Shown piece by piece: positions 28,076 through 37,479 of a DNA stretch of 64,000 nucleotides. This stretch comes from Nitrospira sp. (GTDB lineage: Bacteria > Nitrospirota > Nitrospiria > Nitrospirales > Nitrospiraceae), in the NCBI GenBank assembly GCA_029194665.1, contig JARFXO010000001.1:906484-970483 (forward strand), in the 5' to 3' direction. The translations under genes were made by a program, and so were the position numbers. The notes below the pieces were generated by a model that did not search any database, was not told the DNA's origin, and saw nothing but the letters and a program-made list of their open reading frames with translations. Positions within the stretch are counted from its first letter, which is position 1, and every line of letters begins with the position of its first letter.

Positions 28076-28765
28076 TCAACGTGCAGAGGTAAGAAGATGG
28101 CCGATCAAGCGGTCAGCCGTTTGATGGAGCTGCGGAAGCTGTGACAGAGCGGCTCGTTTGACCTGCTGTGCCGTAAGACGAGCCTTCATCAAATCCGGTG
28201 CACATTCATAACATAGCGAGTCGATCCCATTTTCCTCCATTTCCAGATGAAAGAGAAGGCCATAGGCACGATCGCCATAGCGAAACGCTTGCACCGGCGC
28301 AATGTCAGAACCCGCCAATGACACGCAGTCCTTCGGCAGGTCAAAGACCTCCCCATGCCATTCAAAGACGGGGAAGAACTCAGGGCCGGCCCCAAACACA
28401 GGGTCCTGTTTCCCTGCATCAGTGAGGCGAACAGGGGTCATGCCGATTTCCAATGCCTTGCCTGATCGTACCGTGGCGCCGAGCGCCTTCGCCATGAATT
28501 GACTCCCCAAACAAACCCCGATCATCGGCGTACCGGCGAGCAATGCAGATCTGATGAAGGCTGTCTCCTCGGCAATCCACTTGTCGGAATCATTCACTGA
28601 CATTGGTCCGCCCATCACGATCAGAAGATCACCGGTACCCCTGGGCAACCCATCTCGTGGAACGAGATGGTGCTTCAATGCCATTCCCCGCTTGGAAAGA
28701 GACGCTGCAAAGGCTCCGGGACCTTCAAAGGGAACATGCTGAAGACAGGTCGAGCGCATCGTCAT
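28076..28765 (-). CDS. Class I glutamine amidotransferase
   Basis: 229 residues, GMP-synthase-like stand-alone amidotransferase. Nucleophile Cys85 lies in IGVCLGSQFMAKALG. VMGGPMSVND near residue 50 and the catalytic His-x-Glu in LLFHLEME are present. Such proteins transfer ammonia to unknown acceptors or hydrolyse gamma-glutamyl compounds. No partner synthase is nearby. Confidence 0.8.
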   Translation of the reverse strand: MTMRSTCLQHVPFEGPGAFAASLSKRGMALKHHLVPRDGLPRGTGDLLIVMGGPMSVNDSDKWIAEETAFIRSALLAGTPMIGVCLGSQFMAKALGATVRSGKALEIGMTPVRLTDAGKQDPVFGAGPEFFPVFEWHGEVFDLPKDCVSLAGSDIAPVQAFRYGDRAYGLLFHLEMEENGIDSLCYECAPDLMKARLTAQQVKRAALSQLPQLHQTADRLIGHLLTSAR

Positions 28766-29244
28766 ATCCCTTGGCCATCAATAGGACAAACTGTCACGCT
28801 CATGCACTAGTAACTCTGCTTCGCCATTGAGATGGCAAAAGACATCGCGGTGTAGAGCAGGCTTGTGACACAGGATGCCTGTAAAATTCAAGGCTCGATC
28901 TGTCAGACAACGTCGGCGTGACTCACATTCTGACAGCTTCGTTCCGATGATGCCACCAGGCTGCTGGTGCGTCCTGCAAGACATGCGGTCGCCGATCCGT
29001 TCTGCAGGTTTGCGTGCCCTCTGACGATGACGGGGGGCCACTCGATGCCGGGCTGTCATACACTCTTCTGCAGACCTTGTTACAGAACCTGCTGACAGTG
29101 TCCGACAGATACAGCCCTGGTTCCTATCAAGGAGCGCGTAAACCGGGTGCGCTGGGCTGCACCACGCAGGGTCGGAGGGTAAGATTCTCAAATGACGCAA
29201 CGATCGGTCGCCCGGTAAGATTTTAGATGACTTGATACGTAGTT
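28766..29244. other. Intergenic region, no supported gene
   Basis: About 480 bases before the promoter at 29245. A 140-codon minus frame (28778-29200) is Arg/Cys/His-rich without domain signals or ribosome-binding site and is not called. Confidence 0.5.
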
Positions 29245-29273
29245 TTTACATTTCGGTTTTCCCTTGCTATACT
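29245..29273 (+). promoter_or_regulatory. Strong sigma70-type promoter with long leader
   Basis: TTTACA (29245-29250), exactly 17 bases, then TATACT (29268-29273): five of six matches in each hexamer. It points at the GMC/cupin/GlgX operon and would leave a leader of about 235 bases before the first ATG at 29514, unusually long. The leader has no ORF I trust and ends with AAAGGA before the ATG. Confidence 0.6.
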
Positions 29274-29513
29274 CCTCCGCTGGAAAATGTCCCTGATTGT
29301 GAGACTCAGAAGGAGTAACACAATTATAGCTCTCTCACTGTGTATCCAATTTTCCCATCTCCTGGATCAATTTTGATACAGACCACGAGATGTTGCCATA
29401 GTAACACGATTGAAGAGTCAAGATCTGAAGTTGGCACTTCGTTTGCTTCGAACTATGGTTGTGGAACTCAATGACATTCATCAACCGTGTCCCTTTTTTA
29501 AAGGACTTGCACT

Positions 29514-30581
29514 ATGAAAGCGCTCGAGAAGGATGACGAGTACATTCTGAATCACTGCACGCGCTATCTGGCACGGACCAATACTGACGAACGCCACAAC
29601 TTTGGACAATATCCGACCGGTGACCCACGTGGGCGCGTCTGCGAAGCCTGGCGCTTTCCGATCGTCGACACGTTTTTTGACGGGCAAGATCCAGAATCCA
29701 GCTACCGCTTCAATAAAGTCACGTTTGTCTACCGCAGCTTGAACGAAGAGACGCCGAGTCACGTTGCAGTCGTGGGCACCTTTACCGCTTTATACGACCC
29801 GGTGCCATTGAGTCCTGTTACATTGCAGGACGAAGAGACGGGCTACTATGCGGTATCGGTGCAGGTTCCCAAAGGAGAGGTACACACGTACCAGTATCTG
29901 GTGGATGGTCAATTAGCTCTGGACTCGATAAATCCGCAGCGTATCGAGTTGGACAATGGGAAAATCTGGTCCTCCTTTTTCACACAGTTCTGCAGTCAGC
30001 CCATCCGTCTCGATCGGCACGAATACGAATTACTGATCCGCTTGACCGACCATGTTCTGCCTTTTCGTACCCGCGACGCGCAGAACTTTCTCAATCGGTT
30101 TTACAACATGCTCGACCGCCAGACGAAAGAGACCCAATACAGCTTGGCCTACCAGCTGGATGAATCGGTCGGCGTGGCCAATTTCCTCGACAAGCTGCTC
30201 GCCAAGGAAGAAAACCATCATCTAATCGACTACAGAATCTGTCTCGGTCAGATCGATCGGATACTCCGACAACGTTATCCACAAGCCGAACCCGCCGCTC
30301 TCTCGAAGGAGGCTTATATCGAGATCTACGCGGACCTGGCATCAGGGCGGGTAAACGGGTGGGACTATGAATCTTATGGGAATCCGCAATATTTTTTGCA
30401 GCTTCTGAGGCGGCACACCTACACCGGAGCCTTCTCTCATCCGAAGTATGGCGGCAATGTCGGCGCGGCGGGTTGGGCATACCTTGAAGAGACGTACCGG
30501 GACGCTCAGAACGACAGCGCCTTCGACTGGAGGCGGGCCATGGAGCGTCCTCTGGGCCGCAATCCCGATTATCACGGTTAA
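29514..30581 (+). CDS. Glycogen-binding-like E-set domain fused to gluconate 2-dehydrogenase subunit 3 domain
   Basis: 355 residues, no signal peptide. Residues about 68-160 form an immunoglobulin-like E-set/CBM48-type module: HVAVVGTFTALYDPVPL, VQVPKGEVHTYQYLVDGQ and LDSINPQRIELDNGKIW match the glycogen-binding pattern of AMPK-beta and branching enzymes. Residues about 170-345 match the gluconate 2-dehydrogenase subunit-3 family: LLIRLTDHVLPF, GWDYESYGNPQYFLQLLRR and the HPKYGGNVGAAGW motif near 305. Classical subunits carry a Tat signal; here a sugar-binding module replaces it. Probably the small partner of the GMC protein 18 bases downstream. Domain calls are firm; function is inferred. 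Confidence 0.75.
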   Translation: MKALEKDDEYILNHCTRYLARTNTDERHNFGQYPTGDPRGRVCEAWRFPIVDTFFDGQDPESSYRFNKVTFVYRSLNEETPSHVAVVGTFTALYDPVPLSPVTLQDEETGYYAVSVQVPKGEVHTYQYLVDGQLALDSINPQRIELDNGKIWSSFFTQFCSQPIRLDRHEYELLIRLTDHVLPFRTRDAQNFLNRFYNMLDRQTKETQYSLAYQLDESVGVANFLDKLLAKEENHHLIDYRICLGQIDRILRQRYPQAEPAALSKEAYIEIYADLASGRVNGWDYESYGNPQYFLQLLRRHTYTGAFSHPKYGGNVGAAGWAYLEETYRDAQNDSAFDWRRAMERPLGRNPDYHG

Positions 30582-30599
30582 ATACAAAGGAGCAAGGCG

Positions 30600-32402
30600 A
30601 TGAGGGATGCATTCGATGTCGTCATCATCGGCAGCGGAGCGGGCGGCGCACCGATCGCGCATACCCTCGTACAAGAGGGAAAGAGCGTCGTGATCCTGGA
30701 GAAGGGGCCTCTTTGCCGGCCGCAGTATCAACGGAACGACGGCTTGAGCGATTTCAAGCGTGACGAGATGCTCGCGACCGGCACGGAAAAGCGCATCAAT
30801 ATTGCGGGAGTTGCGAATGCAGGTGTGTCGTATTATAGCAGTCATATCGAGCCGGACCTGAACGATGAACCACACATCTACAACCATAGCGACGGCCGGG
30901 ATCGGGCGACAATCGAAGGCTATACGGCGCAGGTGGTAGGCGGCGGCACTCAACTCTACGGGGGCGTTTCCCTGCGATTTACCGAGCTTGATCTTACCCT
31001 CAAATCGTTCAATGAGGATCGGACCGACCTACGTGACGACTCGACCGGGGACATCAAGCGCGAAGCGCGTGATTGGCCCATCACCTATGACGAACTGGAG
31101 CCGTATTACGGCCAGGCGGAGCGGCTCGTCGGCATCAATGGAACGATCGACAAGCAGAAAAAGCGCTTCAGTTCGAATAACTACCAAAAGCCGCTCGACA
31201 CGAATCCGATCAGCCAGCATGTCGCCGACGGGATGGATGCGCTTGGGATGCCCCGGTACCGTACGCCGTTGGCGGTCATCACCGAGGATCATGAACCCAG
31301 TGGGCGGAAGGTGCCTCAGGATCGGCAACAGGCGAGGACGGCTTATGTCAACCGGTACGGTGATGCGCTAGGGTTGAAGTCGAGCACCTGGGTCGCCTTG
31401 TTGGCGCCGCTCGAGGGACGACCGGACTTCGAACTCCGGCCGAATTGTGTGGTCACGCATTTAGAATGCCAGGGCGCCAAAGTCGCACGTGTGCAGTACC
31501 TCGATCCCGGCGGCCAACGCCGGCAGGTGCAAGGAAAGGTCGTCGTAGTGGCATGCTCGGCGATCGAGAGCATCCGCCTGCTGAAACTGTCGGCCCTCCT
31601 TGATCAGGAATTCGATCGGCGCATACACCAGAACGATTTGCTGGGCTGCTATTTCCTGACGCATTGTTTCGGCGGAGCCTCGGCATACGTCTCCGCTCCA
31701 CTTCGATATGACAAATCGCTCACGCTGGACAGCGACTGGGCTACCGATCAATGCGCGACTCCCGACTTTTTGCGAGAGACGGGACTGTGGGCGGGCGGTG
31801 CGGTGTACAACAATACCTCCGATCGGGCCTTGCCCCTCTCGTTGGCGCGCACCCACGGCAGCCAGGACTTGGATACCTTCTGGAAGGCTTTCATCGAAGA
31901 CCTGAGCATGACCGGCCAGGCCCTTGTGGATTTTCTCGATGGGACTTTCGGCCGGGGACTGTCGGTTAGTTTTATGGCGAATCAGGTTCCACTGAAGACA
32001 AATCGCATTGAGCTGCATCCTACGGCCACGGATAAATGGGGGCGACCGGTGGCCTACATCCTGAAGCGATGGCACAGTCATGACGCTGCGCTGATGGACG
32101 TATTGGCGAGTCAGTGCGCGGAAGTCCTTCGGAAAGGACGGGTTATCAATGGGCTGGGCGAAGGCGGTGTGTATAAGGCGGAAAATGCACTGGCTCGCTG
32201 CGCAAACCACATTCTGGGTGGAGCGCGGTTCGGGAACGATCAGAAAGATTCGGTGCTGGACCGGACATGCCGCGCTTGGGCCTTCGACAACCTGTATGTA
32301 ACCGACGGCGCCTTCATGCCGACATCCGGAGGCGCGAATCCGACGCTCACGATTCAGGCGAACTCGTTTCGAGTGGCTGATCTCCTCAAGCAGGTGGTGT
32401 AA
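30600..32402 (+). CDS. GMC-family FAD oxidoreductase (gluconate 2-dehydrogenase-like)
   Basis: 600 residues. The N-terminal FAD site is DVVIIGSGAGGAPIA (Gly11, 13, 16) with Glu at the end of the second strand (VVILEKG). VVGGGTQLYGGVSLRF is the second GMC signature. At the C-terminus His537 (CANHILGGARFG) and Asn580 (GGANPTLTIQA) are the expected catalytic pair. No signal peptide and no haem site, so it is probably cytoplasmic. Oxidises an alcohol or sugar; with the subunit-3 partner upstream, a keto-sugar product is likely. The electron acceptor is unknown. Confidence 0.8.
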   Translation: MRDAFDVVIIGSGAGGAPIAHTLVQEGKSVVILEKGPLCRPQYQRNDGLSDFKRDEMLATGTEKRINIAGVANAGVSYYSSHIEPDLNDEPHIYNHSDGRDRATIEGYTAQVVGGGTQLYGGVSLRFTELDLTLKSFNEDRTDLRDDSTGDIKREARDWPITYDELEPYYGQAERLVGINGTIDKQKKRFSSNNYQKPLDTNPISQHVADGMDALGMPRYRTPLAVITEDHEPSGRKVPQDRQQARTAYVNRYGDALGLKSSTWVALLAPLEGRPDFELRPNCVVTHLECQGAKVARVQYLDPGGQRRQVQGKVVVVACSAIESIRLLKLSALLDQEFDRRIHQNDLLGCYFLTHCFGGASAYVSAPLRYDKSLTLDSDWATDQCATPDFLRETGLWAGGAVYNNTSDRALPLSLARTHGSQDLDTFWKAFIEDLSMTGQALVDFLDGTFGRGLSVSFMANQVPLKTNRIELHPTATDKWGRPVAYILKRWHSHDAALMDVLASQCAEVLRKGRVINGLGEGGVYKAENALARCANHILGGARFGNDQKDSVLDRTCRAWAFDNLYVTDGAFMPTSGGANPTLTIQANSFRVADLLKQVV

Positions 32403-32404
32403 CG

Positions 32405-33559
32405 ATGGATCCTAGGTTCAATGATATCTTTACCAGTCCTGAAAACAGCATCTTCAAAGTGGTCTTCTTCCCGGACCGAATCTATCACGCGCCGTACCTG
32501 AATGCGACACGCAGCTCGCGCTATAGGTACAACGTGACAGAAGTGCGAGGCTATCTCGACCTCATCGCGCTGAAGGCTCAGGTGTATCTGGACGGCAGCT
32601 TTTTCTGCAACGTGCTTCGCCTCGAATACCGAGCCAGCCGTCTGGTGGAGCAGGCGCGGCTCAAGAACCGATTCCTTCGCGAGGAGATCCTCGCATGGGT
32701 CAAGCTGCACCCAAATGAGAAGGATGACGGTCCCGAGAGTATGGTGAAGCTCCACTATGACGACTGGATCAACGGCTACCAGGTCGAAATTTGGGATACT
32801 CTGGAGGCGCCAGCCAACGGCTACCACGACTTTTCCGTGCTGGACATGATGGGACGTGATCGTCCGATCACTCGGATCAAGGTCTTCAACCCTGTCTTAG
32901 CCGATCTTGCGGCGCTTCGACGCATAGAGCTGGCTTTTCGTGAGAATGACCGGGACCTTCCGTCCGGGCGTGTGATTGCCGATCCCGGCTGGGACAATGA
33001 TTTTTTGCGCTCACATCAAGAGCCGCGAAGCGATGGACCGAGCGCCCCGGAAAACACCGTCCTAGACCAGAATTACCTGCTGGATTTCCAACGCGGCTGG
33101 TTTCGTCAGGCGAGCGACATCAAACCGGTCCGCTATCGCAACGCGATGATGGAGGGCGATAAGAATCCAGACGCCAAGAACGACAACATCATTGAGATGC
33201 GTTGGCTGTTTCAACGGGAGTTCGGCAGCTCAATGGTGTTTTTTCACGAGGTCACCGTACCGCCCGGGAAGGTGGAGGGCAACCACCAGCACATTGGATC
33301 CGAGGAACTGTACTTCATTACACAGGGGGAAGGTATCGCCTACTTGCGAGTTGGTGATGATCCCATCGCCGACGATCGGTTCCCGACAGAGAGCCGAGAA
33401 GTATTCGGGCTCGGCCAGCGTGACTTCAAGGCGATTCCCGTGAGGCCTGGCAGCATGATTTTTACCAAGAGCGGCGGCATGCACGGGATCCGCAATCCCA
33501 ATCTTGATCCGGCAAGCGCACCGCTCAAGTTCGTGGCGTTCCTCTATCACAGCAGCTAA
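32405..33559 (+). CDS. Long cupin-domain protein 1
   Basis: 384 residues. The first 250 form a beta-rich region of no known family (NSIFKVVFFPD, YDDWINGYQVEIWDTL). The C-terminal cupin has motif 1 GNHQHIGSEELYF with His294, His296 and Glu300/301, and motif 2 GGMHGIRN with His360, so the metal site is complete. It begins two bases after the GMC stop. Probably a metal-dependent isomerase, epimerase, oxygenase or sugar binder; which of these is unknown. Confidence 0.7.
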   Translation: MDPRFNDIFTSPENSIFKVVFFPDRIYHAPYLNATRSSRYRYNVTEVRGYLDLIALKAQVYLDGSFFCNVLRLEYRASRLVEQARLKNRFLREEILAWVKLHPNEKDDGPESMVKLHYDDWINGYQVEIWDTLEAPANGYHDFSVLDMMGRDRPITRIKVFNPVLADLAALRRIELAFRENDRDLPSGRVIADPGWDNDFLRSHQEPRSDGPSAPENTVLDQNYLLDFQRGWFRQASDIKPVRYRNAMMEGDKNPDAKNDNIIEMRWLFQREFGSSMVFFHEVTVPPGKVEGNHQHIGSEELYFITQGEGIAYLRVGDDPIADDRFPTESREVFGLGQRDFKAIPVRPGSMIFTKSGGMHGIRNPNLDPASAPLKFVAFLYHSS

Positions 33560-33585
33560 TTCACAGCCCCAACGCGAGGCAGCCT

Positions 33586-34836
33586 ATGGTTATTGTCCAT
33601 ACCGACAGCATCTTCAAGGTCGAGCCCGGCACGTCTCCGAACTACAATCAGAACAACCCACTGTTAAAACTGCTGGGACTCATGGAGCGGGTCCAACTCG
33701 CCGCCGAACGAGACTTCTATCTGATGGGCCAAACACAGTACCTGTTCCCATTCCAGTTTCTCGAGCTGTATGGGCCGAGCGGAGCGAATGCCGACGTACT
33801 GGACCCGCGTCAGCAGGACGTGAAGACGGATTTCCAAAAACAGAACGTCCGGTCGTTTCAGACGACGAACACGTTTCTGGTGCGGGGGCTCGTGAGCATC
33901 GGCGACTGGACGGGTCCGTTCTTGCGCCTGTCCTACCGAGGCGGCCCGGATTCGCTGCTCTCTCAAGCGGCGAAGCACCGGCTCGGCGATCGCATTAAAC
34001 TGTGGCTCAAGGTCGGGAATACGGCGGCCTCGGGATTCATCCCTGTACCATACAGTCCTGCTTCGGATCGTTACGAAATCGAGTTCTGGGGTTATCCAGG
34101 GAATGATTTGCGTGCTCGCCTCGATGACAAGGGAAAGTCGGCGTTTGATCGCGGTGAATTACAAGTACGCACCGATCTCATCCAAGGCGGTCCGGCGGAT
34201 TTCACCCGTGAAGGCCTGGAAAATCGTTACACCGCGGAGGTGGCGCCCAACCACGCGATGCATCCCATACGGCCCCTGCACCTGGAGATTGCCTGGGCGG
34301 ACAACAGCGAGTCGATCTTCGATTCACTGGCAGGCGCGAATTACCACTACGAGTTCAATATGATCCTCCGCGGCTGGCAGAATTATTTAACGGTGGGGAT
34401 GAGCCCCAACCCCCATGGGGGCATCGGCTTTCTGGAATATCGCAACCTGCTCTCGAATTACGGTCGGTATGCCGGCAGCAAGGAACTCGGCCGGACGATT
34501 GAACCATGGAATCTTGATGCGTTCGGGACAAAGGCGGGCGCTACCAGACGGGAGGAATTCTTGGCCGTCGATTATATGGATCTTCACCTGCTCCAAGGCG
34601 GTTGCGGCATCGGGCTGCATCGGCATCGCGACAATCAGGAAGTCTTCCTGATGATGGAAGGCCGAGGCTACATGGTCGTGGGAGATTGGTGCAAGATGCC
34701 GGAGCGGGAGCGGTGCTTTGAGATCCGCACGTTGCATGCGGGACACTTCGCCATGCTGAAAGGCGGCAATCTGCACGGTCTGATGAATGCGACCGATGAA
34801 AACATCAATCTGTTCATGTTCGGCGGCTATGACTAG
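33586..34836 (+). CDS. Long cupin-domain protein 2
   Basis: 416 residues with the same plan as the protein before it: an opening DSIFKVEPGTS, about 330 residues of unrecognised beta-rich sequence and a C-terminal cupin. Motif 1 is GLHRHRDNQEVFLMMEGRG (His345, His347, Glu352) and motif 2 GGNLHGLMN (His397). The two cupins share the SIFKV start and the layout, suggesting old duplication and a heteromeric pair. In the operon by 26-base spacing. Function unknown. Confidence 0.7.
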   Translation: MVIVHTDSIFKVEPGTSPNYNQNNPLLKLLGLMERVQLAAERDFYLMGQTQYLFPFQFLELYGPSGANADVLDPRQQDVKTDFQKQNVRSFQTTNTFLVRGLVSIGDWTGPFLRLSYRGGPDSLLSQAAKHRLGDRIKLWLKVGNTAASGFIPVPYSPASDRYEIEFWGYPGNDLRARLDDKGKSAFDRGELQVRTDLIQGGPADFTREGLENRYTAEVAPNHAMHPIRPLHLEIAWADNSESIFDSLAGANYHYEFNMILRGWQNYLTVGMSPNPHGGIGFLEYRNLLSNYGRYAGSKELGRTIEPWNLDAFGTKAGATRREEFLAVDYMDLHLLQGGCGIGLHRHRDNQEVFLMMEGRGYMVVGDWCKMPERERCFEIRTLHAGHFAMLKGGNLHGLMNATDENINLFMFGGYD

Positions 34837-34898
34837 CGCCCGGCGGAGTCTAGCTCGCGCGGGGTCGTCCGAAGGAAGGACAATCAGAGGGGATGGCG

Positions 34899-36947
34899 AT
34901 GAATGGATGGACAAGGACCGAAGGGGCATCGGCTCCGCTCGGCGTGACGTGGCTCGAAGAGGAGCAGGCCTATAACTTTGCCTTATATGCCCGCCACGCG
35001 AGCACGGTGACCCTGCTTGTGTATGCGGAGAGCGATCTGACTGCGCCGGTGTTCGAGTCCTCCCTCAGCCATCTCAAGAACAAATCAGGACGCGTCTGGC
35101 ACTGCTGTGTCCCGGTGGCGGATCTCAAAAACGGCCGTTACTACGCTTATCGCGTCGACGGCCAAGGGGACGATTCGTTCGGACACCGCTTCGATCCTTC
35201 CAAGGTCCTGTTGGATCCATACGCGCGCGGCGTCTTCTTTCCACCCGCATTCAGCCGAGCCGCAGCCAATGGAAGCGCAGCCAACGATGGTCGGGCACCC
35301 CTCGGCCTTCTTCCGAAGAGAGGACAACCTTTCGATTGGGGGATCGATGTCAGACCAATTCATACATCGGACACGATCATTTATGAAGTGCATGTACGAG
35401 GATTCACGAGGAGTGCGAGATCAGGAGTGCGCGACGCCTTCCGCGGAACTTTCACGGGCCTGATCGAGAAGATCCCGTATCTCACAGACCTCGGCGTGAC
35501 AGTGGTCGAGCTGCTTCCGGTCTATCAGTACGATCCAGACGAAAGTAACTACTGGGGCTACATGCCGCTCGGCTTCTTCTCCCCGCATCAAGCGTACGCC
35601 GCGGAAGGGAGCGCGGAAGGGGCATTTGATGAGTTTCGTCATATGGTGAAGGCACTGCACGCGGCTGGTATCGAGGTCATTCTGGATGTGGTCTATAACC
35701 ATACGAGTGAAGCTGGTGCATCGGGACCTACGTATAGTTTTCGAGGAATCGATAATAGCACCTACTATGTATTGAGATCGGACGGCCGAACCTATCGCGA
35801 TGAGACCGGCACGGGTAATATGCTGCGGACCGCCCATCCCGCGGTGCGCAAGTTGATTCTCGACAGTATGCGGTTTTGGGCCAAAGAAATGCATATCGAC
35901 GGCTTCCGCTTCGACCTCGCTTCAATCCTCACCCGTAACAACGACGGCTCACTCAACCTGGAAGATCCTGCGGCAATCTCAGAGATTACTGCAGACCCGG
36001 ACTTTGAGCATATCCGCCTGATCGCCGAAGCTTGGGATATGAGCTCGTATCAACTTGGACGAAGCTTTCCCGGGATGAGCTGGTTGCAATGGAACGGGCA
36101 GTTCCGGGACGACATGCGCAGCTTCGTGAAAAGCGACTCAAGGACTGTGCCTGCTGTAATGCGACGTCTGTACGGCAGCGATGATCTGTTTCCCGACGAC
36201 CTGCTTGATGCCTACCATCCGTATCAAAGTATAAACTATGTCACCTCCCATGACGGATTCTGCCTTTACGACCTGGTCTCTTACAATCAGAAGCACAACG
36301 AGGCGAATGGGCATCAGAACCGCGATGGCACGGACAACAACGTGAGCTGGAATTGTGGATGGGAGGGAGATTTAGATGTTCCACCCGAAGTGATGGCGCT
36401 TCGCATGCGACAGATAAAAAACTTCTGTTGTCTACTCATGTTGGCAAACGGTACACCGATGTTTACGGCCGGGGACGAATTCATGCAGACCCAACAGGGT
36501 AACAACAACCCATATAATCAGGACAACCAGACAACCTGGTTAAACTGGGATTTGTTAGAGAAGCACCAGGATATGTTCCGTTTCTGGAAGAGGATGATCG
36601 CTTTTCGCAAGGCGCATCCTTCTTTGTCTCGGAGTCGATTTTGGCGAGACGATATCCGATGGTATGGAACCGGAACGACCCCAGATCTGTCGGAACACTC
36701 GCATAGTCTTGCGTGGTGTCTGCACGGCGCGTCTCAGGGAGATCGTGATATCTATTGTATGGCTAATGCCTATTGGGAGCCCCTCTCCTTTACCATTCAG
36801 GAAGGACAAAACGGTGACTGGAGACGCGCAATCGATACAAGCTTCGCCACTCCCAACGACATCATGGAGCCGAACACCGAGCCGCTGTTACCCACGCTCA
36901 GGTACACAGTGACGCCTCGGTCTATTGTTGTGCTCTTGCGCGTATGA
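34899..36947 (+). CDS. glgX: GlgX/isoamylase-type glycogen debranching enzyme
   Basis: 682 residues from ATG 34899, six bases after AGAGGGG; the ATG at 34893 sits on that site. N-terminal CBM48 (about 10-110, YAYRVDG...HRFDPSKVLLDPYA). GH13 barrel: DVVYNHTSE, nucleophile Asp339 in IDGFRFDLAS, acid/base Glu377 in LIAEAWD and Asp452 in VTSHDGF, all intact. AGDEFMQTQQGNNNPYNQDN is the GlgX/TreX-type segment. Hydrolyses alpha-1,6 branches of glycogen or limit dextrin. Last gene of the operon, 62 bases behind cupin 2. Confidence 0.88.
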   Translation: MNGWTRTEGASAPLGVTWLEEEQAYNFALYARHASTVTLLVYAESDLTAPVFESSLSHLKNKSGRVWHCCVPVADLKNGRYYAYRVDGQGDDSFGHRFDPSKVLLDPYARGVFFPPAFSRAAANGSAANDGRAPLGLLPKRGQPFDWGIDVRPIHTSDTIIYEVHVRGFTRSARSGVRDAFRGTFTGLIEKIPYLTDLGVTVVELLPVYQYDPDESNYWGYMPLGFFSPHQAYAAEGSAEGAFDEFRHMVKALHAAGIEVILDVVYNHTSEAGASGPTYSFRGIDNSTYYVLRSDGRTYRDETGTGNMLRTAHPAVRKLILDSMRFWAKEMHIDGFRFDLASILTRNNDGSLNLEDPAAISEITADPDFEHIRLIAEAWDMSSYQLGRSFPGMSWLQWNGQFRDDMRSFVKSDSRTVPAVMRRLYGSDDLFPDDLLDAYHPYQSINYVTSHDGFCLYDLVSYNQKHNEANGHQNRDGTDNNVSWNCGWEGDLDVPPEVMALRMRQIKNFCCLLMLANGTPMFTAGDEFMQTQQGNNNPYNQDNQTTWLNWDLLEKHQDMFRFWKRMIAFRKAHPSLSRSRFWRDDIRWYGTGTTPDLSEHSHSLAWCLHGASQGDRDIYCMANAYWEPLSFTIQEGQNGDWRRAIDTSFATPNDIMEPNTEPLLPTLRYTVTPRSIVVLLRV

Positions 36948-37470
36948 AAACCCATGTAGTTCAACGTTCCGAATGCCATATCGCGGTGTAACAGTTAGAT
37001 GAAGGCTACACCGTTCCTGTTCCAGAACTTTTTAGACGTTGGTCTCAAGGGTGTCACGGATCCAAATGCCATCAGAATGTACAAGATGCCTCCCGCCCTG
37101 TCTGGGTACATATCAACGTCTGCCGTTCAGAATAGGCCTGCATATTGCGGCAAACCGCCTTCGACATTAGGTATCGATCAAGAAATACGTCCCGTTCGAC
37201 AAGACGATCACTAAAGCCCGGAACCTACAAGGGAACAGCTTCACACAAGCCGCACATATTGACTCTCTTCAGGGTCATGCAAAACCCCCGTCATTGCATA
37301 ACCATTGAATCATCAACGGTTTATCAACTGAATAATTGAGTTTGGACCCTGGAGAGCAAGTGGCGGGCCCTTCTGAACGTGACAAGTGGATCAGCCGGCG
37401 ACACCTGGCCACCGAATGCTTGTGCCACTCGTCGTGGCTTCCCTTTTCTATTCACTCTCCCTTAAAGTAG
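36948..37470. other. Intergenic region, no supported gene
   Basis: About 520 AT-richer bases after the debranching gene. No convincing coding frame, terminator or repeat was seen; a 71-codon plus frame is not supported. Confidence 0.5.
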
Positions 37471-37479
37471 GTGCCCGAT

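Follow-up and report, generated by a model that had tools for sequence, protein, structure and literature searches.

The known complexes of a GMC-family flavoenzyme with a small subunit are sugar dehydrogenases that are exported and coupled to cytochromes. The Burkholderia cepacia FAD-glucose dehydrogenase alpha/gamma pair (6a2u, 8grj) and fructose dehydrogenase (7w2j) pair a GMC catalytic subunit with a small subunit of the Gluconate_2-dh3 or hitchhiker type. In the Burkholderia FAD-glucose dehydrogenase, the small subunit begins with a 47-residue signal peptide that contains a Tat motif (PMC6719666). The CBM of the AMPK beta subunit (PF16561, CBM48) is a beta-sandwich with the motif order GxF..., VDGx...DP, and mutants of its carbohydrate contacts, W100 and W133 among them, show markedly reduced glycogen binding (PMC2642990; also PMC4032982). 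The CBM48s of CE1 feruloyl esterases (8bbp, 6rzn) are fused to the esterase within polysaccharide-degradation systems, line a cleft, and are reported not to bind starch, and the CBM48 of DmCE1B packs on the catalytic domain and faces the active site (PMC8040265).

The window, a stretch of 64,000 nucleotides from a Nitrospira sp. contig, contains five genes, g1 to g5, all on the + strand and separated by intergenic gaps of 18, 2, 26, and 56 bp (Table 1). The first four encode, in this order, a small subunit with CBM48-like and Gluconate_2-dh3 domains, a GMC flavoenzyme, cupin protein A, and cupin protein B. All 17 loci, of which the window is one, share this order, and they come from at least six named phyla. 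This four-gene cassette is undescribed and horizontally spread. The combination of a GMC enzyme with a small subunit is of a known type, and its signal-less form with a CBM48-like domain is new. The cassette is the main finding beyond the architecture of g1, and no paper describing the operon was found in the open-access literature searched.

Table 1. Features of the cassette region, with positions counted in the window.
Feature	Position	Strand	Evidence
g1, small subunit, 355 aa	29514..30581	+	Pfam, AF2 model and fold matches, 17-homologue alignment
g1 parts: N-terminal arm, residues 1-60; CBM48/AMPK-CBM-like beta-sandwich, residues ~61-158; Gluconate_2-dh3, residues 166-322			
Coding DNA of the CBM48-like domain (g1 residues 61-158)	29694..29987	+	Pfam and fold matches
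g2, GMC-family flavin oxidoreductase (600 aa) lacking a signal and the 3Fe-4S cysteines	30600..32402	+	Pfam, solved relatives, residues
g3, large cupin protein A (384 aa) with a metal-type cupin as its C-terminal part	32405..33559	+	Profile, fold, residues
g4, large cupin protein B, 416 aa, distant g3 paralogue	33586..34836	+	hhalign, residues
g5, GlgX-like GH13 debranching enzyme with CBM48, 684 aa	34893..36947	+	Profile, block comparison
Acquired block, ~8.6 kb, holds g1-g5, absent from congeners	28749..37350		Empty-site comparison, six congeners

The g1 gene is an open reading frame with an ATG start. Its product matches Gluconate_2-dh3 (PF13618) at residues 171-322 (E 2.1e-10, 41.5 bits against a Pfam cutoff of 23.4), which confirms the identity as a gluconate-dehydrogenase small subunit proposed in a sequence-only reading of this DNA. 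That reading also placed a CBM48/E-set-like module at the N-terminus, and the module is real. In Pfam, AMPK1_CBM (PF16561) matches the window protein at residues 82-141 (E 1.5e-4), with a score of 22.4 bits that lies below the gathering score of 26.8. Both Gluconate_2-dh3 and AMPK1_CBM are matched by 13 of 13 g1 sequences, namely 12 homologues and the window protein, with a best AMPK1_CBM E-value of 3.7e-9. A chance match of the window protein to the CBM48-like profile is rejected on this consistency, and the complete lack of carbohydrate-binding or E-set matches that would have told against the module is not seen. The AlphaFold2 (AF2) model of g1 has a mean pLDDT of 62, with ~70-90 across residues 51-160, and is poor in the Gluconate_2-dh3 part, where pLDDT is below 50 in places. 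In the latter domain, E233 and H235 are invariant (residues 232-235), and the region has a weak profile match to manganese catalase (E 0.48).

The beta-sandwich of the AF2 model extends over residues ~66-156. Its top Foldseek match is the AMPK-beta2 CBM (E 5.5e-6, TM 0.87 by target), and VIA-align superposes the two with Z 11.2 and rmsd 1.6 Å over 84 residues. Feruloyl-esterase CBM48s rank first in VIA-align (8bbp, Z 12.4, rmsd 2.0 Å, 96 residues), with AMPK/SNF1 modules just below at Z ~11. The g1 module shares the beta-sandwich and the motif order of the AMPK-beta CBM, but the AMPK-type carbohydrate-contact set W100/K126/W133 (rat beta1 numbering) is not conserved in the alignment of 17 homologues. 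Every one of the 17 has Leu at the W100 position. At the W133 position, Trp is kept in four (loci L017, L018, L020, and L021), and the window protein has Leu. At the K126 position, 16 carry Lys or Arg, and the window protein carries Gln. The invariant residues of the module are V69, L93, L99, H124, Y126, D137, N140, P141, Q142, W152, and S153, and of these H124, Y126, D137, N140-Q142, W152, and S153 differ from the AMPK carbohydrate set. Like the CE1 esterase CBM48s, which are its best fold match and sit beside a catalytic domain, the g1 domain most likely serves as a structural or substrate-guiding lid or interface, possibly with weak or non-canonical glucan contact. This role is favoured by the loss of the binding-site Trp, by the reported lack of starch binding in the esterase modules, and by the packing seen in DmCE1B.

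A Tat motif is absent from the first 70 residues of g1-g4 in the 17 loci, and no hydrophobic stretch occurs within the first 45 aligned residues of the 17 g1 homologues. The maximum 15-residue Kyte-Doolittle mean at the g1 N-terminus is 1.02, compared with ~2.0 in two signal-peptide controls. The absence of a twin-arginine signal noted earlier for g1 is therefore upheld. The accompanying suggestion that the module replaces the signal is misleading. The window protein is not an odd single case: every g1 of the cassette family has the N-terminal arm and the CBM48-like domain, which makes the architecture a family trait.

The product of g2 is a GMC oxidoreductase with N- and C-terminal domains (GMC_oxred_C, E 5.7e-21 in Pfam), and the FAD-site glycines G13 and G114-116 and the catalytic H537 and N580 are conserved in 17 of 17 homologues. 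FAD-glucose dehydrogenase is the top match (E 2e-44) in a profile search against solved structures, followed by fructose dehydrogenase (E 7e-33), and g2 has the FAD fold and the catalytic His and Asn in common with these enzymes. The g2 and g1 products also correspond to the catalytic and small subunits of these enzymes. Unlike them, the cassette lacks a Tat signal, the 3Fe-4S cysteines, and a gene for a multihaem cytochrome, and it comprises a 355-aa small subunit with an added CBM48-like domain and two operon cupins. The g2 segment aligned with the cysteine-rich 3Fe-4S region contains no Cys in 11 of the 17 homologues and one Cys in the other six, and no gene for a multihaem cytochrome c occurs among g1-g5 or the scanned neighbouring genes. 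Since these cysteines, the cytochrome gene, and the Tat signal are all missing, the periplasmic-type electron route would be unavailable to g2, and the acceptor may be O2 or another soluble compound. Sugar oxidation by a GMC enzyme with O2, one of the possibilities for g2, is found in bacterial pyranose oxidase and C-glycoside 3-oxidase (9fl2, 8qve). These are less similar to g2 and have neither a small subunit nor cupins.

The cupin proteins encoded by g3 and g4 are distant paralogues across most of their length (hhalign probability 96.7%). Both are metal-dependent cupins by residue pattern, with a complete HxH...E...H ligand set in all 17 homologues of each: His294, His296, Glu300/301, and His360 in g3, and His345, His347, Glu352, and His397 in g4. 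The fold of the C-terminal domain of g3 resembles TM1287 (Z 13.8) and the sugar-phosphate isomerase cupins (Z 12.6). No family was identified for the N-terminal half of either protein in a VIA search, which was dominated by the cupin domain.

The 16 loci beyond the window comprise 12 from a search of genome contigs with a cupin A alignment, Microvirga included, and four from surveys. By record title, the hosts include Nitrosomonas, a gammaproteobacterial MAG, Candidatus Contendobacter, Bradyrhizobium, and Microvirga. Also named are Aphanothece and further cyanobacteria, Brevibacillus, a verrucomicrobial MAG, a Mycobacterium MAG, and an acidobacterial MAG, and the labels of several MAG contigs, which are short (5-7 kb), may be wrong. 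The tblastn relative on a plasmid of Microvirga sp. VF16 has the same four genes and a GH13 gene, and among the plasmids searched only this one, pMVF16-5, carries the cassette. The cassette was not found in viral contigs and phages, and g1 alone as a query gave no match on genome contigs. Pairwise identities correlate between the cassette genes (Spearman 0.74-0.83).

The cassette is rare, being present in 0-1% of sampled genomes. In the phylum to which Aphanothece belongs, 4 of 386 sampled genomes carry it. By order, the counts are 1 of 399 for that of Nitrosomonas, 1 of 397 for that of Bradyrhizobium, 2 of 298 for that of the Mycobacterium MAG, and 1 of 126 for that of the window. Each sample includes its centre genome, so the four orders contribute 0, 0, 1, and 0 extra matches, respectively. 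The gene trees contradict taxonomy: Nitrosomonas falls inside a cyanobacterial clade, and the Mycobacterium MAG lies next to Contendobacter. These strong splits are common to the trees of the four cassette genes.

In the window, homology to six congeners ends at ~28748 and restarts at ~37351-37434, so that ~8.6 kb stands in place of 0.28-1.75 kb. A glutamine amidotransferase gene borders this stretch on one side, and the gene at 37471 on the other. This break around g1-g5 indicates that the cassette arrived as a block together with the GlgX-like gene. GlgX as an ancestral neighbour is accordingly rejected, as g5 lies within the block. The repeats found include no clear flanking repeat at the block edges, and base composition does not clearly mark the block. 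The window contains no tRNA, and Rfam gives no match anywhere in it.

The g5 protein aligns with GlgX (TIGR02100) over its full length, including the CBM48 and GH13 parts, with a score of 628.9 bits, below the curated cutoff of 640.9. The catalytic residues Asp341, Glu379, and Asp454 are present by motif. The genome contains three GlgX-like genes (G000:C1:941376, C6:337208, and C1:324826). The cassette copy is ~63% identical to copies in four congeners, which are located at other sites, and one of these (L066) adjoins what we take to be a glucan phosphorylase gene. Across the loci with usable flanks, a GH13 gene adjoins the cassette in 9 of 14 (the window, L012, L013, L014, L015, L017, L019, L022, and L037) and is absent in five (L018, L024, L035, L036, and L038). 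At least three GH13 kinds occur: GlgX-like, two GlgB/TreZ-like groups that are ~30% identical to each other, and an alpha-amylase (L017, a short ORF). The recurrent pairing with GH13 enzymes of several types speaks for a common class of substrate, and the variation in type makes the link to a substrate indirect. In the literature searched, nothing relevant was found on the oxidation of glucan or glycogen by such enzymes.

The reading that we tentatively prefer, at a likelihood somewhat short of even, is that g1 and g2 form a cytoplasmic GMC oxidase or dehydrogenase complex acting on an alpha-glucan-derived sugar, with GH13 supply, a CBM48-like lid, and the cupins downstream. The g1 protein would be the dedicated small subunit of a cytoplasmic g2, as in the FAD-glucose dehydrogenase alpha/gamma pair, but never exported. 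A neighbouring GH13 enzyme would free malto-oligosaccharide, glucose, or chain ends from alpha-glucan, and g1-g2 would oxidise the freed sugar, with electrons passing to O2 or another soluble acceptor. The CBM48-like domain would cover the enzyme as a structural or substrate-guiding lid, and g3 and g4, if they act on the oxidised sugar, would probably isomerise or cleave it. In favour of this reading are the conserved order, the correlated divergence, and the shared tree splits of g1-g4, the closeness of g2 to FAD-glucose and fructose dehydrogenases with its invariant catalytic residues, the GH13 neighbours, the position of g5 in the same block, the lack of signals in g1-g4, the invariant metal ligands of the cupins, and the peroxidase genes near two cassettes. 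The five loci without an adjoining GH13 gene, the varying GH13 type, and the small number of peroxidase neighbours speak against it. Export of the g1-g2 complex without an N-terminal signal, with oxidation of an extracellular sugar, is highly improbable. It would agree with the periplasmic location of homologous GMC/small-subunit complexes (PMC6719666), but g1-g4 lack signals in all 17 loci, the starts of the inspected GH13 neighbour proteins are also cytoplasmic-looking, and no secretion genes are seen adjoining the cassette.

Two other readings concern the module. The sequence-only reading proposed recruitment of the oxidoreductase to a polysaccharide inside the cell, and binding of glycogen or a similar alpha-glucan, with tethering to a storage granule, would fit the AMPK-CBM fold, the profile matches in every g1 sequence compared, the nine GH13-flanked loci, and the basic residue at the K126 position in most homologues. 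The alpha-glucan link is retained through these GH13 neighbours, and the AMPK-type fold is right, but a glycogen tether is only partly supported and is unlikely: W100 is lost throughout and W133 in most homologues, mutation of these residues in AMPK strongly lowers glycogen binding (PMC2642990), starch binding is reported to be lacking in the CBM48s that match the fold best, and the invariant residues of the module lie outside the AMPK carbohydrate set. The same loss of Trp and the same esterase matches also agree with a purely structural domain of the CBM48-CE1 kind in an enzyme whose substrate is not an alpha-glucan sugar, perhaps in a specialised-metabolite or detoxification pathway, the GH13 genes being coincidental or serving another purpose. 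The five loci without GH13, the patchy distribution, and the tyrosinase, DyP, and animal-type haem peroxidase genes among the neighbours point in this direction. This reading is nevertheless rather unlikely, given that adjacent GH13 genes of several subfamilies in so many loci are estimated to be improbable by chance, and that the nearest solved GMC relatives are sugar dehydrogenases.

Returning to the preferred cytoplasmic complex, a GMC form that lacks signals, has a CBM48-like domain, is accompanied by two paralogous metal cupins and often by GH13 genes, and has spread as a unit across distant phyla points to an undescribed cytoplasmic sugar-oxidation pathway. In a more specific and doubtful form, the cassette may be a mobile operon for intracellular alpha-glucan oxidation, in which a GMC flavo-oxidase complex, positioned by a remodelled CBM48 domain, oxidises the ends of glycogen chains or malto-oligosaccharide, the product being converted by the two metal cupins. 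If true, this would be a route of storage-polysaccharide use that none of the papers searched describes. For biochemistry and sensors, the cassette would be a source of a sugar oxidase or dehydrogenase that is independent of cytochromes, and the residue pattern of the module makes the question of glycogen binding directly testable.

Other neighbours of the cassette include peroxidases, in two loci only. In L038, a gene for an animal-type haem peroxidase overlaps the start of g1 (L038:4703-6304), and in L035 a gene for a DyP-type peroxidase lies a few kb downstream of g4 (L035:2832-4355), beside that of a 418-aa protein. These peroxidases are consistent with H2O2 production. A tyrosinase with a Tat-like N-terminus is encoded ~1.4 kb downstream of the L013 cassette on the opposite strand (L013:13846-15321). 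Two cyanobacterial cassettes are preceded by genes for similar small proteins (L035:15163-15573 and L037:14268-14699), which we presume to resemble XisH.
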